Source: Methanomicrobiaceae archaeon
GTDB lineage: Archaea; Halobacteriota; Methanomicrobia; Methanomicrobiales; Methanomicrobiaceae
DNA: 64,000 nucleotides
Assembly: GCA_029762625.1 (NCBI GenBank)
Contig: JARVGI010000002.1
Coordinates: forward strand, 374,772 to 438,771
Direction of reading: 5' to 3'
In this document: in pieces, positions 22,690-30,646 of the stretch
How positions within the stretch are numbered: the stretch's first letter is position 1
How the letters are laid out: every line of letters starts with the position of its first letter
The notes under the pieces: generated by a model
Seen by the model: the letters and a program-made list of their open reading frames with translations, nothing else
The model's database searches: none
What the model was told of the DNA's origin: nothing
Position numbers and translations under genes: made by a program

Positions 22690-25374
22690 ATGCCTCTTCC
22701 AAAGCAGCGTTTCGTGAGCGACATGGGTGGATCCAGCAGTTCTGTCGTACTCCTCGGGGAGATGGATACCGGTGCCGGCATGGCCATGGGAGGAAAGGCT
22801 GCATCGCTCCACCGGCTTGCCGGTGCCGGCCTTCCCGTCCCGCCGGCGGTTGTCCTGACAGTGGACTTCTTTGCAGAATGGACGGCGATTCTCCGGAAGA
22901 CGGATGCCTGGCAGGATCTCTTCTCCGGTGACGAGGGGGTGCGGGACGACGCGCTCAGGCATATCGCTGCAGTGTGCGGCACGCTCGAACTCTCGGAGTC
23001 CCGGCGGGAGGCGCTGTGGTGTGCACTGGATCGGCTGCCGGGGGAAGGAGGGCTGTATGCCGTCCGTTCGTCTGCAGGCGATGAAGACATGAGCGATGAC
23101 GCATTCGCAGGCATATACCGGACAGTCCTCGGCGTCAGGAAAGACCAGCTGGAGGAAGCCGTACGGGAGGTGTTTACCTCCCGGTTTGCGCCGAAGGCCT
23201 TTGCGTACCGCGATGCGAAGGGCGTACCCTCCCGTGACACGGGTATGGCGGTCATCGTCCAGCAACTGGTTCCGAGCGAGGTCTCGGGGGTCGCCTTCTC
23301 GGCAAACCCGGACAACAACTCGCGCCATGAAGTTGTCATCAACGCGAACTGGGGGATCGGCGAAAGCATCGTGTCGGGGCGTGCCACGCCGGACTTCTAC
23401 GTCGTCGAGAAGTACGGGGACAGAGTCCTCGGGAAGCGGCAGGGCGGCAAAGAGTGCTCGGTATATGCCTCCCCCGACGGGGGCCTTGCGGAGCGTACCG
23501 GCCACCGCACCGGTGAATGGTCGCTCTCCGAAGACGGGATCTTCCGGGTGCGCGACCTGGCGCGAGAGGGGGAGGCACTCTTCGGCTATCCGGTCGATAT
23601 CGAATGGACATTTTCGGGCACTGATTGCTATCTCCTGCAGGCACGGCCGATCACCACGCTCGTCCCGTTCGATAGGAGGCTCCTGACCCTGCCCGGAGAA
23701 CCCCGGCGCCTCTACATGGACCTCACCCTGATCGAGCACGGCATGCAGGGGTCTCTCTCGCCATTCGGGTCGTCGTGGCTCGACCGCATCCTTTCCTGCA
23801 CGCTGGAAGAGCTGACCGGCGTTGCAGGAACCGGCAGCGACATCGCACGCGGCCTCGGGCAGACGCTCGACGGGAGAATATACCTCACCATCTCGAATCT
23901 CCTCTGGCTGGAGAAGCCATGGCTCATCGCCCTGCAGTTCGAGGGCATTGATACATCGACGGCGGCGGTGGTGCGGGGCCTTGACACCCGGGCGTGGCGG
24001 AACCCGAAGAAGCCGGAATGCCTGAGGTGGGTCGTCCCCCGCTCGCTCTGGCATTCAAAGGATTTAATCGGGGGAGCAGTACTGGGCTTTTTCTTCCCCG
24101 CCCGCCTGCGTGGCCGGTATGCAGAACAGGTTGCCCGATTCCAAACCGCCATCGCAGACCTCGAAGGGACCACCGCGGACCTGCGGGAGTTCTGCGACGA
24201 GTCCGGACGGATGGTCGTCCGGCTCGTCAAGGAATCGACCGGGGCCACGCTGATCGCCTCAGAAGCCGCCCGCCTGCTCCTGCGCAGGATGTTCGCGGCC
24301 GATCTTCCGGCGATCCGGTCAAAGGCCGACATACTGGACCGGGCGCATCCCGGGAATATCACGATCGCAATGGGCCGCTCCATGCACCGCCTTGCAGCGC
24401 AGATCGATCCCGCGCTCCTGTCGGATCTTCCCGCCCTTGCCGAACGCATACGGCGCGGGCAGATGCCTGATGCGTTCATGGAGGCGTGGGAGGAGTATCT
24501 GGGGGTCTACGGGTGCCGGGGGCCGCGTGAGATCGATCCCGCCGCAAAGGGGTATGCGGGCGACTGGCCTCTGCTCCTTGCCCAGATCAAAAGCCTGCAC
24601 CCGTCTTTCTGCGGGAGGATGAACCCCGAGGAGCGGTTCTTGGAGATGCGGCGGGACCGGGAGCAGGCATACGCGGAGCTCCACGACCATTGCAGGCGGC
24701 AGGGCCGCCTGAGAGCCCTGTACTTCAGGCACCTCTGCAGGGTGCTCGACACCTTCGGAGGCCTTCGCGAGGATCACAAGTACTATCTGGTCGTGGCAAC
24801 CTCCCTCGTGCGCGGTAGGGTGCTGGAGATAGGCCGGCACCTGGTCTCTGAAGGCCGGATTGGAGCTGCAGAGGAGGTGTTCCTGCTCAGCATCGACGAT
24901 GTCCGGCACGCCCTCGCACATCCCGGGGCGGAGCTGCGGGGCAGGGTTGCGCGAAACAGGGCCGCATACGAGCGGATCGACAGGTGCAACCGGTTCCCGG
25001 CGCTTTTCGATTCATGGGGGCGTACCTGGAAGCAGCCGTCCAGAGGTGCGGGTCCCGGCGAACTCGCGGGGTACGGCGTCTCCGGGGGAACAGCCCGCGG
25101 CCCGGTGAAAGTGCTGCGCTATCCCGGAGAAAAAGAGATCTCACCGGGGGATATCCTCGTGATCGGCGCTGCGGACCCCGGGTGGACGCCGTCGTTTATC
25201 AGCGCAGGCGGCATCATCCTCGAGGTGGGCGGGCTCCTGCAGCACGGCTCGATTATCGCTCGTGAATACGGGAAGCCCTGTGTGGTGGGAATTGAGAACG
25301 CGACCGTGATGTTTTCGGACGGACAGGTGGTCGTGGTGGACGGCACCCTCGGGACGGTGAGCGTGGAGCATTGA
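22690..25374 (+). CDS. Rifampicin-phosphotransferase/PEP-synthase-like protein
   Basis: An 894-residue soluble protein with three parts. The N-terminal PEP/pyruvate-binding ATP-grasp domain (about 20-325) shows 'MGGKAASLHRLAGAGLPVPP', 'YAVRSSAGDEDMSDDAFAGI', 'VSGVAFSANPDNN' and 'YLLQARPITT'. The middle (about 340-790) is a variable, helix-rich domain. The C-terminal swivelling phosphohistidine domain carries His852 in EVGGLLQHGSIIAREYGKP. The GGLLxHG form is the one in rifampicin phosphotransferases (Rph), whereas PEP synthases have GGxxCHAAI, and the PEP-synthase TIM barrel is absent. The likely chemistry is ATP-driven phosphotransfer through the swivelling His to an unknown substrate bound by the middle domain. 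It lies upstream of the prenyl synthase fusion with 170 bases between them. Confidence 0.85.
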   Translation: MPLPKQRFVSDMGGSSSSVVLLGEMDTGAGMAMGGKAASLHRLAGAGLPVPPAVVLTVDFFAEWTAILRKTDAWQDLFSGDEGVRDDALRHIAAVCGTLELSESRREALWCALDRLPGEGGLYAVRSSAGDEDMSDDAFAGIYRTVLGVRKDQLEEAVREVFTSRFAPKAFAYRDAKGVPSRDTGMAVIVQQLVPSEVSGVAFSANPDNNSRHEVVINANWGIGESIVSGRATPDFYVVEKYGDRVLGKRQGGKECSVYASPDGGLAERTGHRTGEWSLSEDGIFRVRDLAREGEALFGYPVDIEWTFSGTDCYLLQARPITTLVPFDRRLLTLPGEPRRLYMDLTLIEHGMQGSLSPFGSSWLDRILSCTLEELTGVAGTGSDIARGLGQTLDGRIYLTISNLLWLEKPWLIALQFEGIDTSTAAVVRGLDTRAWRNPKKPECLRWVVPRSLWHSKDLIGGAVLGFFFPARLRGRYAEQVARFQTAIADLEGTTADLREFCDESGRMVVRLVKESTGATLIASEAARLLLRRMFAADLPAIRSKADILDRAHPGNITIAMGRSMHRLAAQIDPALLSDLPALAERIRRGQMPDAFMEAWEEYLGVYGCRGPREIDPAAKGYAGDWPLLLAQIKSLHPSFCGRMNPEERFLEMRRDREQAYAELHDHCRRQGRLRALYFRHLCRVLDTFGGLREDHKYYLVVATSLVRGRVLEIGRHLVSEGRIGAAEEVFLLSIDDVRHALAHPGAELRGRVARNRAAYERIDRCNRFPALFDSWGRTWKQPSRGAGPGELAGYGVSGGTARGPVKVLRYPGEKEISPGDILVIGAADPGWTPSFISAGGIILEVGGLLQHGSIIAREYGKPCVVGIENATVMFSDGQVVVVDGTLGTVSVEH

Positions 25375-25544
25375 GTGCCGCGCGGGTCGGAGGGGTATCA
25401 CGTCCGCGATTGGTTTCGGCCGGGGAATTCGCCACTCCCTGCCAAACCTTATAGTGGTGCACGAGAAGATCTGATCATAGATCCTGGGAGGAGGAAGACG
25501 TTACCGGATCCGACAGCAATCAGACCTTTTTCATCCCCCCGTCA

Positions 25545-27713
25545 GTGCACCCCCACCCCGATGACGAGAGCCCATTTGTGAAGTGGTGGTATCTCCAGGG
25601 CACGTTTCAAGGTGAGGACTGCCGGACGAGAAATTTTGTCGCCTGCTTCTTTTCTTTGCGGCTGCCCGAGGAGGGCACGCCGGGTTCGATGTACCTCTGC
25701 TCGGTCATCGACCCGGCAACAGGAGAGCACGGCAAAGAGATCCTCATTGACGAGCGCTCGCGTGCCTGGTACCTTGAGAGGCTCGCCGTTCTCCCGGGAC
25801 ACTTCGGCATCAGCCGGTGCATCGCGGAGACAATCCAGCGAGAAATCGCCGATTATGGCCTGTATCCACCGTTTTCCTGTCCGGAGAGCCCGATGCGGAT
25901 CTCCTCGCAGGCGATCGCATGGGACACTGCATCTCTCTCGTTTGCCCCATCCGCCATATCGGTGTCATTCACCGACCCCGGAACCGGCCGGCCGGTTTTC
26001 CTTCTTCTCGAACCGGAGGTGCCGTTCGTCGACATCCCCGGCCTGCTCCCCGACGGCGAGGAGATCGGGATGGAGTACGTGAGCTGCCCCCGGCTCTCGG
26101 TGCAAGGAAGGTACGGCGACGAAGCGATCAGGGGGGAGGCATGGTTCGACTGCCAGGCAGGCGGAGATGCATGGTTTGTGAAACCACATGCCGGTGCCCA
26201 CCGTCCGGAGGAAGCAGCCTGCGATCCCCTCGGCTGGGACTGGTGCGGTGTCAACCTCGACGACTGCCGGAGCCTGCTCTTCATGCACCGCAAGAATATA
26301 GGCTCCGGCGAGACGGAGGCGAAGTTCTGCGTTCTCTTTGAGGGATACGATGCAAGGTATTTCCCGGATTTCGAGCTCGATCCGCTGCGGTCCTGGGAGA
26401 GCCCGATCACCCACATCCACTATCCTATCGAGTGGGCGTTCTCCGTGCCCGAAATCGGGTGCCGGCTCACCTTCTCGCCCGAAATCGATGCGCAGGAGAT
26501 CGAGCTGATAGGGATATCCGGCGGCATATGGGAGGGATCGGGAACGGTCTCCGGCGAAATCGGGGGCGCCGCGGTCTCGGGACGAGGCCAGCTGGAGCTC
26601 TACGGCTGCGGGTACATACAGGACCTCTCCGACTTCCTCGCCCGGTTCCATGCAAAGATCGATGCGGGACTGGCCGGCATGTTCCCGCCGGCGATCGATG
26701 GTGCATGGTGCGACGCCATATTCGGCAGGCACCAGCCGATACTGGACTGCACGCCAATGACGGAGACGATCGCAAAACCGGTGTGGGACCTTCTCTCGCG
26801 CAACGGGAAGCACTGGAGGCCCATATTCGGGTTCCTGATCGCCGAGGCGATGGGCGTTCCGGTACGAGAGGATATCGAGCGGTTGTTCATCCTCACCGAG
26901 CTCCTGCACACCTCGGCACTGATCATCGACGACATCGAGGACCAGTCGCTTCTCCGGCGGGGCGAGGAGTCTATTCATATTCGCTACGGCATCGATGTGG
27001 CCATCAACGCGGCAAGCACCCTGTACTTCTTCCCGCAGAGCGTCGTGGCCCGCGCCGGGTGGCTGACCGAAAGCCAACGCTACGAAATTCTGACGCTGAT
27101 GACCGAGACCTCGCTCAAGGCACACCTCGGCCAGGCCCAGGACATCTACTGGTCCGGAACAATCTCGCGCGAGAACCTCGATCGCTGGCTCTCCAACAGC
27201 CTCGATGCACAGCTCCTGCAGATGTATGCGTTCAAGACCGCGTCGGCCACCGAGGGCGTCGCTGCGCTCTCGGCGATATTCCTCGACCTTGCCGAGGAGA
27301 AGAAAGAGGCATGTCTTGCATTCGGCAGGGGGATGGGTATTGTCTTCCAGATCATCGACGACGTCCTCAACTTCAGCGACTCGCCGGAGTGGCGGAAGGT
27401 GCAGGGCGAGGATCTGAAGGCGGGGAAACCGACCTATGCGATAATCCGGGCGATCGGGATGCTTGAAGATGCGGAATCCGAGCGGCTGAAGGACATCCTC
27501 TGCACGCCGGCGTTACGGGAGGACGAGTCCGTTCTTGCCGAGGGGATCGCACTCGTCAGGAAATCGGGAGCGGTGGAGAGTTGCGTGCAGGAGGCGGTGG
27601 ACATGATCGAGGATGCATGGAAGCAGTTTTCCCGGTATATCCCCCCCTCGCCTGCAAAGCTCATGCTCCGGGTGGTCTGCGCAAACCTGATCCAGATGGC
27701 ATACGACACCTGA
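25545..27713 (+). CDS. Fusion: CrtC/lipocalin-like domain plus polyprenyl diphosphate synthase
   Basis: A 722-residue two-part protein. Residues 1 to about 370 resemble the CrtC/AttH hydratase-like lipocalin superfamily: 'PFVKWWYLQGTFQ' near the start, 'SFTDPGTGRPVFLLLEPE', 'WFDCQAGGDAWF', 'DWCGVNLDD' and paired beta strands. Residues about 400-720 are a trans-isoprenyl diphosphate synthase, with 'GKHWRPIFGFLIAEA', the first Asp-rich motif in LIIDDIEDQSLLRRG and the second in FQIIDDVLNFSD. The synthase condenses IPP with allylic diphosphates. The start is uncertain: GTG at 25545 lacks a clear Shine-Dalgarno, while an in-frame extension upstream (FFIPPS, no ATG) looks protein-like and sits just behind gggaggagg at about 25486-25494. 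It follows the Rph-like gene. Confidence 0.85.
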   Translation: MHPHPDDESPFVKWWYLQGTFQGEDCRTRNFVACFFSLRLPEEGTPGSMYLCSVIDPATGEHGKEILIDERSRAWYLERLAVLPGHFGISRCIAETIQREIADYGLYPPFSCPESPMRISSQAIAWDTASLSFAPSAISVSFTDPGTGRPVFLLLEPEVPFVDIPGLLPDGEEIGMEYVSCPRLSVQGRYGDEAIRGEAWFDCQAGGDAWFVKPHAGAHRPEEAACDPLGWDWCGVNLDDCRSLLFMHRKNIGSGETEAKFCVLFEGYDARYFPDFELDPLRSWESPITHIHYPIEWAFSVPEIGCRLTFSPEIDAQEIELIGISGGIWEGSGTVSGEIGGAAVSGRGQLELYGCGYIQDLSDFLARFHAKIDAGLAGMFPPAIDGAWCDAIFGRHQPILDCTPMTETIAKPVWDLLSRNGKHWRPIFGFLIAEAMGVPVREDIERLFILTELLHTSALIIDDIEDQSLLRRGEESIHIRYGIDVAINAASTLYFFPQSVVARAGWLTESQRYEILTLMTETSLKAHLGQAQDIYWSGTISRENLDRWLSNSLDAQLLQMYAFKTASATEGVAALSAIFLDLAEEKKEACLAFGRGMGIVFQIIDDVLNFSDSPEWRKVQGEDLKAGKPTYAIIRAIGMLEDAESERLKDILCTPALREDESVLAEGIALVRKSGAVESCVQEAVDMIEDAWKQFSRYIPPSPAKLMLRVVCANLIQMAYDT

Positions 27714-28243: not shown

Positions 28244-28903
28244 ATGGCAGAGAACAGGAAAAAATTCGATAAAAAAGGCGCAGGAAATATGGACGAGATC
28301 GCAAAGACCCTCTTTGCCCCGATATACCCGATGATCGCACAAAACATCATCGATCGGTTCGGGATCACCGAAGGCATCTGCATCGACCTCGGGAGCGGGC
28401 CCGCATCACTGGCAATCGCCGTGGCGGCGCAATCCGACCTCGAAGTCATCGCGCTTGATTTTTCAGACCACATGCACGAAGCCGCCTCGCGAAATATCGC
28501 AGATGCAGGACTGAGCGGCCGGATTCGCCTCCTGCGCGGTGATGTGCATGACATTCCCCTTGCCGACGACACCGCAGACCTGATCATCAGCAGGGGCTCG
28601 ATGTTCTTCTGGGACGACGTCCATCGCGCCTTCCGGGAGATCTACCGGGTCCTCAAACCGGATGGCAGAACCTACATCGGCGGGGGGTTCGGAAACCGGG
28701 AACTGCGAGACTCGATTTCGGCCGAGATGATCCGCAGAAACCCCGATTGGAAGGAATTCAACCGCAAAAACATCTCCCCGGAGAACGTTGCGCGGTTCCG
28801 AACCGTGCTGGAGGAGATCGGCGTTCCCTCGTTTGACATCATCCACGGGGACGAGGGGTTCTGGATCGTGATTGCCAAGACCACCGGCGGAGCGCTCCCA
28901 TGA
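28244..28903 (+). CDS. Class I SAM-dependent methyltransferase
   Basis: A 219-residue methyltransferase. Motif I is 'CIDLGSGPASLAIAVA', motif II 'VIALDFSDHMHEAASRN', then 'LLRGDVHDIPLADDTADLIISRG' and 'FREIYRVLKPDGRTYIGGG'. This is the UbiE/Methyltransf_11 pattern. The ATG at 28244 (MAENRKKFDKKG) is chosen because the long upstream in-frame extension is Cys/His-rich junk and a gaagg lies just before it. Its stop overlaps the start of the radical SAM gene (ATGA at 28900-28903), so the two are translationally coupled and probably act in one pathway. The substrate is unknown. Confidence 0.88.
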   Translation: MAENRKKFDKKGAGNMDEIAKTLFAPIYPMIAQNIIDRFGITEGICIDLGSGPASLAIAVAAQSDLEVIALDFSDHMHEAASRNIADAGLSGRIRLLRGDVHDIPLADDTADLIISRGSMFFWDDVHRAFREIYRVLKPDGRTYIGGGFGNRELRDSISAEMIRRNPDWKEFNRKNISPENVARFRTVLEEIGVPSFDIIHGDEGFWIVIAKTTGGALP

Positions 28904-30646
28904 AATGTCCGGTCTGTGAAATCGGGTGCGATATCGCCGAGGGACGATCCGGCCGGTGCAGGATGTACGCCAACCGCGACGGCGAGATCGTCGAGCGGTT
29001 TCCCGAATCCTACCTGACCATGCTCCCCATCACCATCGAGACGATGCCGGTGGTCCATTTTGCCCCGAAAAACAAGTTCTTCCAGGTCAGCACCGTGGGG
29101 TGCACCTTCACCTGCCCGGGGTGCATCTCGGAGACACTGACAGTGCACGCCGATGCGGTGGCGGGCAATGCAGGAAGACTGCACCGGCATCGTCTTCTGC
29201 CTCAATGACCCCGCCGCCTCGTACTTCACTTTTCTCGCCCTCGCACGGGAGACGCACGCGGCCGGTCTCCGGGTAGGGTGCTCGACGAACGGGTACTTCA
29301 CCGAATCCGCCCTCGCCTCCCTCATCCCCTCCCTCGACTTCGTCAACATCGGCCTGAAGGGGTCATCCGATGAGCGCTACCGAGAGTGCGGGGCGAAGTC
29401 GGCGGACCCGGTGTTTCGGAACATCCGCACGCTGCATGAGGGAGGGGTGCACGTGGAGGTCTCGGCAATGTACATCAACGGCGCCGATGAGGAGATCCTC
29501 GAGGCGGCACGGCGGGTGGCGGAGGTATCCCCCGACATTCCGTTGCAGGTGATGCAGTTCGTGCCCTTCGGTGACGCGGCGCCGGGCCTCGAGCCGACGA
29601 TCCGGGAATCGGAACACATCACGGACCGCCTGCGCACGATCCTCCGCTTCGTCTACCTCTTCAACTCGCCCGGCACCGAATACCTCACCACCATCTGCCC
29701 GGTCTGCGGCACTGCAGTCATCGAACGTGAATTCTACGGGCCCATGGGCTGTCGCACCACCGCCTCCCTCGCAGGCGGCAGGTGCCCCTGCGGCTGGCAG
29801 GCTCCGGTGCGGGGCTCCATCAACGATCAGCAGTATACCGAATACGGCATGCTCGGCGGCTACCGGACCACGCGGGCCATTGAAATGGCCCATGCCATCC
29901 TGGTCACCCTGGGGATCCGTGACGACCAGGAGCTCGGCTCCGTCCTCGGCGACATCATCAGGGAAGACTTGATCCGGGGCATGCACGACCGCATCCAGCA
30001 GATCGATTCATGGCTCGGGCTGATCGAAGACCTCGCCGCCCGTGCGGGACGGGAGGGGGAAGGCAGGGGACTGATTGCCTTTATCCGGGAGCGGGTCGAC
30101 CGGATCGCCGCCGGCAGCGCCCTCGCCAAAACCCGACCTCGCGTCTACTACTCGATGGGCTACCCGCTCTTCGCACTGAATGCGGAGCGATTCGAGACCA
30201 ACCTGGTGGAAGCGGCGGGAGGGACCTGCGTCAACAAGCGCATCGAGCGGAAGGGCAAGCCCGGGGTCAATATCTCCGCAACAGAACTCAACGACCTCAA
30301 TCCCGAATACATGTTCATTTCAGGATTTCTCTCCTCGCCCGCGTCGGACTACCTCCACTACTGCACCACGCACGGCATCGAGACCGACGCGGTCAGGGCG
30401 GGCAGGCTCTTCAATATCCCTGCGGGATGGGATTTCGGCAGCCCGAGGTGGATCCTGAGGTTCATGTGCATCGCGAACACCATTCACCCCGAGATCTTCT
30501 CCTTCGATCTTGAACACGAGCAGCGGGAATTCTACCGGAGATTCTACGGTATTACGTCGGGAACCATCGTCACAAACCGCGATTTTCCCCGGCCGATGGT
30601 TGGCACGTCGAAAAATCTGTCCGGGGAACGGGTTCGGCAACAATAA
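28900..30646 (+). pseudogene. Radical SAM protein with binding-protein-like tail, interrupted by a frameshift
   Basis: Two frames together make one protein. Frame one (28900 to about 29165) has an N-terminal Cys set (CPVCEIGC...GRCRMY) and the radical SAM cluster motif GCTFTCPGC (Cys68, Cys72, Cys75). The next frame (from about 29168 to 30646) continues with 'CTGIVFCLNDPAASYF', 'VGCSTNGYF', 'VNIGLKGSSDERYR' and 'EVSAMYINGADEEI', all radical-SAM barrel strands. After about residue 300 comes a segment like an Fe/cobalamin periplasmic binding protein ('VYYSMGYPLFALN', 'SATELNDLNPEYMFISGF'). The junction at about 29168 is not a homopolymer, and a short loop may be lost. The overlap with the upstream methyltransferase suggests a two-step modification pathway. 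As written, the gene would not make one intact protein. Confidence 0.8.

Follow-up and report, generated by a model that had tools for sequence, protein, structure and literature searches.

Gene fusions often join consecutive steps. In fungal chimeric terpene synthases, an N-terminal modifying domain, which is an alpha-helical cyclase, precedes a C-terminal prenyltransferase that builds the chain. Kievitone hydratase of Nectria haematococca (7a0q/7a0t) adds water to a prenyl double bond, and is a secreted, stand-alone fungal enzyme that acts on an isoflavonoid and has no synthase domain. AttH/NE1406 (PF09410/PF17186, 2ich) has a duplicated lipocalin fold, is stand-alone and transporter-linked rather than fused, and has been proposed to work in lipid transport (PMC2954199). 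CrtC (PF07143) belongs to the same superfamily and acts on an isoprenoid, with an Asp and two Trp residues needed for terminal prenyl hydration. Replacing its His239, Trp241, Tyr266 or Asp268 with alanine abolishes activity, and three tryptophans, Trp110, Trp283 and Trp285, are also critical (PMC4717167, PMC12402844). In addition, 25-phosphosteroid lyase (25-PSL; 9g2i) acts on the end of the isoprenoid side chain of a steroid and works together with a kinase. For chain building, the type III GGPP synthase of yeast (BTS1, 2dh4) is a stand-alone eukaryotic enzyme in which Tyr107, Phe108 and His139 stop elongation at C20, as cited in PMC9729869.

A fused gene in methanogens and one bacterium

Our window, the whole 64,000-nucleotide stretch of Methanomicrobiaceae DNA that was analysed, contains a gene in which a CrtC/AttH-fold domain is joined to a trans-prenyl diphosphate synthase. 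A sequence-only reading had placed both in one polypeptide, and this proved correct. A single open frame runs on the plus strand from GTG 25545 to 27713 (722 aa), and Pfam places in it, in order, the CrtC N-terminal lipocalin (aa 13-203, E 2.5e-5, 25.4 bits against a cut-off of 22.5), Lipocalin_9 (aa 229-354, E 1.5e-16) and polyprenyl_synt (PF00348, aa 407-654, E 1.9e-49). The features of the locus are given below, with residues such as D217 and Y509 counted from codon 25500.

22690..25374, plus strand: rifampin-phosphotransferase/PEP-synthase-like ATP-dependent phosphotransferase, PPDK_N and C-terminal phosphohistidine domain (Pfam, structure matches, motif)
25442..25454, plus strand: CCAAACCTTATAG, TATA-box-like element between the phosphotransferase gene and the fusion, conserved in clade A, the clade of this genome (alignment)
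25486..25494, plus strand: GGGAGGAGG, ribosome-binding-site-like, before GTT 25500 (upstream alignment)
25500..27713, plus strand: fusion gene, CrtC/AttH-fold domain and trans-prenyl diphosphate synthase; listed open reading frame from GTG 25545, probable start GTT 25500
25500..26618, plus strand: N-terminal double lipocalin (CrtC/AttH fold), about 373 aa (aa ~20-370; Pfam, AlphaFold2 model, structural matches to 2ich and 7a0q)
26142..26156, plus strand: W215-F-D217-C-Q219, the counterpart of WYDRQ in kievitone hydratase by alignment; its Asp (codon 26148-26150) is a candidate proton donor
26619..27710, plus strand: C-terminal trans-prenyl diphosphate synthase, 364 aa (aa ~375-737; Pfam, structural match to 1wy0)
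26928..26942, plus strand: first aspartate-rich motif, DDIED (sequence; invariant in a 12-sequence alignment)
27024..27029, plus strand: Tyr509-Phe510, putative chain-length floor (alignment to Tyr107/Phe108 of yeast GGPP synthase)
27123..27125, plus strand: His542, matching His139 of yeast GGPP synthase (alignment)
27357..27371, plus strand: second aspartate-rich motif, DDVLN (sequence)

The gene probably starts near 25500, at a non-canonical codon. The frame stays open 5′ of GTG 25545 and homology begins before that codon. The upstream region is kept in five clade A relatives (L004, L005, L006, L007 and L011) as a TATA-like element, a GGGAGG-type ribosome-binding site and then a GTT, ATT or ATC codon, and a non-canonical start is seemingly used across the clade. 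In L004 and L005, none of ATG, GTG and TTG occurs from the preceding in-frame stop up to codon +63, a position already deep in the domain, and the fusion gene therefore probably starts at 25500. Elsewhere in the window, a radical SAM (AmmeMemoRadiSam-like) gene appears to be divided between two overlapping frames, 28900-29208 and 29153-30646, through either a frameshift or a true split, and the C-terminal part of this gene weakly matches a periplasmic-binding-protein domain. The genome has one further PF00348 gene, an IdsA-like synthase by eye.

The fusion is real, beyond chance and no sequencing artefact. A domain-architecture search recovered it from other Methanomicrobiales: 14 of the 232 genomes of the order carry the domain. 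In 12 of them the domain and the synthase share a single unbroken frame, whereas the two broken carriers are disrupted by a run of Ns (G190) and by an internal deletion (G141). When 84,980 species genomes were scanned for a sequence pattern, an approach that may miss divergent copies, one further carrier emerged, an Omnitrophota bacterium (L068:5956-8175, 38% identity over the full length). Thus the halves are not separate genes in all close relatives, and a fusion by sequencing error is excluded, as both 12 of the 14 archaeal carriers and the Omnitrophota bacterium have the halves joined. Across the order and the Omnitrophota contig, identities to the window protein range from 35 to 82%. The archaeal copies form three clades: A (this genome and Methanoculleus-type MAGs) at about 82%, B at about 56%, and C (mostly Methanoregula-type MAGs) at 35-39%, with nine carriers in clades A and B together and five in clade C. 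The fusion is absent from two congeners of this genome. Among 393 sampled genomes from the phylum it occurs only in members of this order, while two others have distant stand-alone AttH-like proteins. Among 284 other Omnitrophota genomes no fusion was found, two having distant matches in shorter frames. No viral relatives were found, nor any description of such a fusion in open-access papers. Both halves are under purifying selection, as judged by dN/dS (~0.2 for the N-terminal half and ~0.12 for the synthase half, in pairs with unsaturated dS), and the trees of the two halves agree in their main clades.

In one genome, G043, the block of phosphotransferase and fusion is present in three copies (G043:C1 at 11621, 2249777 and 2268441; L039, L040 and L049). 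One copy reads as a single 1,814-aa frame, which is probably due to an indel because the other two have separate frames, and a three-part fusion was therefore set aside.

The synthase half and the N-terminal barrels

The C-terminal half was expected from its sequence to be a trans-prenyl synthase with both aspartate-rich motifs intact, and it is. It also contains GK..RP, K-T, FQ..DD and a GK after the second motif, and these motifs vary little or not at all across the 12 aligned sequences, L014 (clade C) having ND in the second aspartate-rich motif. Its model matches the Pyrococcus GGPP synthase 1wy0 (VIA Z 34.0). By sequence, its best match is yeast GGPP synthase, with about a quarter of residues identical, a shared GQxxDIYW and small residues before the first aspartate-rich motif, here S472 and A473 at positions -5 and -4. 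These small residues had raised a long-chain product, which was dropped given Y509, F510 and H542. The latter three align with yeast Y107, F108 and H139, are invariant in the 12-sequence alignment and are present in Omnitrophota. Since they match the type III residues, the predicted product of the synthase half is C20, all-trans GGPP.

AlphaFold2 models based on 12 sequences were obtained for the whole protein (pLDDT 85.6, pTM 0.79) and for the N-terminal domain alone (pLDDT 85.0, pTM 0.86). The closest structure to the N-terminal model is AttH 2ich (Z 31.5 over 291 residues, rmsd 3.2), followed by kievitone hydratase 7a0q (Z 28.4 over 283 residues, rmsd 3.0, 15% structural identity), the Diels-Alderases CghA/Fsa2/Phm7 (Z 21-22) and 25-PSL (Z 20-20.7 over 267 residues, rmsd 3.8, with 9g2i at 20.7). 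The next matches are unrelated barrels with Z < 10. A sequence profile of the domain significantly matched only AttH (7e-31) and kievitone hydratase (3.2e-8) by hmmsearch, with no match to 25-PSL at E<=5. In the match to kievitone hydratase, W-x-D-x-Q and a later W-x-W align with WYDRQWGN...NWTW, and AttH has W-x-D and GWDW. The five residues concerned (W215, D217, Q219, W246, W248) do not vary among the fused proteins. Ahead of the prenyltransferase, the models have a pair of beta-barrels in place of the alpha-helical class I/II cyclase domain, which is absent.

Comparison with CrtC is less close. The Asp and W-x-W of CrtC have counterparts in D217 and W246/W248, matched by motif spacing. However, His239 and Trp241, which lie ~29 and ~27 residues before the Asp, have no shared His or Trp at that spacing in 13 fused proteins, a comparison that relies on spacing, and residues 170-214 of the window protein include neither His nor Trp. 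The Pfam score for CrtC is weak, the clade B copy in L037 has no CrtC match at E 1e-3, and the fusion gene lies outside the carotenoid cluster. Of the initial assignment to a CrtC/lipocalin-like domain, the fold is therefore upheld, whereas nearness to CrtC is not: by sequence profile and modelled fold, the N-terminal domain is nearer to AttH and kievitone hydratase.

Possible chemistry and the neighbouring phosphotransferase

In clades A and B, the phosphotransferase encoded upstream is an obligate partner of the fusion. Its gene is found in 9/9 carriers of these clades compared with 1/189 others (198 genomes), and adjoins the fusion wherever looked at. It is absent beside clade C fusions and from clade C genomes, and is not beside the Omnitrophota fusion. 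The protein has an N-terminal ATP-grasp and a C-terminal phosphohistidine domain with an intact phosphohistidine motif, LQHGSIIAREYG. Its closest structures, 5fbs and 5hv1, are named phosphoenolpyruvate synthase in the PDB, and we take them to be rifampin phosphotransferases. Rifamycin phosphotransferase is among its NCBIfam matches below the cut-off, and no NCBIfam cut-off was reached. Clade C fusions have 340-385 aa proteins as neighbours, which were rejected as specific partners, being a paralogous family with several copies per region.

Beyond the computed fusion, folds, synthase motifs, type III residues, Asp/Trp residues and neighbour linkage, we infer a substrate, a product length, a hydration and an order of steps. 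Our preferred reading, held tentatively, is a bifunctional isoprenoid enzyme that makes GGPP and hydrates its distal end. The C-terminal half would convert IPP and an allylic diphosphate to all-trans GGPP (C20), and the N-terminal half would bind the hydrophobic chain between its two barrels. Asp217 would then protonate the distal isopropylidene double bond, and water would quench the tertiary cation to give an omega-hydroxylated C20 chain. The phosphotransferase next to the fusions of clades A and B may add a phosphate to the resulting tertiary alcohol or to a different isoprenoid alcohol. With a GGPP synthase fused to it, the N-terminal half is likely to have a prenyl chain as its ligand, and the fusion persists in copies as little as 35% identical and in both archaea and a bacterium, consistent with a bifunctional enzyme. 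Hydration is favoured because kievitone hydratase, the closest relative of characterised activity and second to AttH among the fold matches, is known to carry it out. Across the superfamily, hydration (CrtC, kievitone hydratase) and phosphate elimination (25-PSL) both act on or produce an isopropylidene end, whereas the Diels-Alder reaction does not. Several observations argue against hydration, including the same fold in Diels-Alderases and a phosphosteroid lyase, the missing counterparts of CrtC His239/Trp241, and the clade C and Omnitrophota fusions that have no phosphotransferase neighbour. RgCrtC did not hydrate geraniol. Moreover, AttH, for which lipid transport is proposed, carries the same Asp/Trp motif, so the motif is no proof of hydration.

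The proposal for AttH/DUF2006 leads to a less probable alternative, in which the N-terminal domain performs no chemistry and is a carrier or sensor that holds a hydrophobic product or passes it to a membrane or transporter. This would fit AttH as the best structural match and the association of AttH relatives with ABC transporters (PMC2954199). The Omnitrophota fusion is in an apparent operon, whose other genes encode an overlapping MacB/FtsX permease, an ABC ATPase and a flavoprotein of the HI0933 type. Omnitrophota AttH proteins that stand alone likewise adjoin FtsX-like permeases. However, no transporter is found next to the archaeal genes in the annotated stretches, the sequence profile reaches a characterised hydratase as well, across its catalytic motif, and no signal peptide is visible in the fusion, whereas two of the stand-alone Omnitrophota proteins next to an FtsX-like permease, L082 and L083, appear to have one. 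AttH-like proteins were also seen in two other archaea. One, from the same phylum (L057:871-2070, G292), has a possible N-terminal signal sequence. The other is a stand-alone gene (L056:3-2052, G375) divergent from a flavoprotein gene that looks geranylgeranyl-reductase-like by eye, an arrangement that hints at an isoprenoid role.

The obligate partner, with its phosphohistidine motif intact, also brings to mind the cascade of 25-hydroxysteroid kinase and 25-phosphosteroid lyase on cholesterol side chains (PMC8449060, PMC11061730). By analogy, the neighbour would phosphorylate an isoprenoid that bears a tertiary alcohol, and elimination of the phosphate by the N-terminal domain would leave an isopropylidene end. 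Although 25-PSL shares the fold, this is unlikely: the kinase of the steroid cascade, at 40 kDa, belongs to a different phosphotransferase family (PMC8449060), the lyase has no detectable sequence similarity to the N-terminal domain, and the partner is missing from clade C and Omnitrophota.

An unusual bifunctional terpene synthase, in which protonation of the chain end starts cyclisation ahead of a C-terminal prenyltransferase, appears improbable. Its domain order would be that of the fungal chimeric enzymes, the superfamily includes the ring-forming CghA/Fsa2/Phm7, and CrtC chemistry has been likened to that of terpenoid cyclases. However, no tailoring enzymes are seen conserved around the gene across clades, and we know of no cyclase of this fold that acts on a prenyl diphosphate by protonation.

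Phytoene/squalene synthase occurs in 35/232 genomes of the order, and elsewhere in the genome of 7/9 clade A/B carriers, this one included, compared with 27/189 others (Fisher 7e-5, relatedness ignored). In the three archaeal clusters examined (this genome, G043 and G080), it lies with CrtI-type, UbiA and CruF genes, with family names taken from G043 and applied to the other two by similarity. A bacterioruberin-type carotenoid cluster (CrtID, phytoene synthase, UbiA prenyltransferase and CruF) is seen in methanogens at L108 (C25 of this genome), L109, in which the families are named, and L110. Even so, a dedicated carotenoid enzyme, supplying GGPP and carrying out 1,2-hydration of an acyclic carotenoid, is very improbable, and is excluded as the general role because all five clade C carriers lack phytoene/squalene synthase, which is moreover not near the fusion in the genomes examined and occurs without it in 27 genomes of the sample, CruF already being there for hydration.

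Returning to the preferred hydration, a GGPP synthase is here tied to a family whose best-characterised members act on isoprenoid tips. If hydration is true, the N-terminal half would be a cofactor-free hydratase working on a prenyl diphosphate. It is conceivable, though we regard it as doubtful, that the protein represents a new bifunctional terpenoid architecture, built on a beta-barrel and not a helical cyclase. In methanogens it would yield an undescribed omega-functionalised C20 isoprenoid, whether hydroxylated, phosphorylated or cyclised, and in two clades it would work alongside a dedicated ATP-dependent phosphotransferase. AttH-type proteins have had a published structure since 2009 but no known function, and the fusion gives them a testable substrate. 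In a few methanogenic archaea and one bacterium, this protein may build an unusual lipid or terpenoid and cap it, and it points to undescribed isoprenoid products in methanogens.
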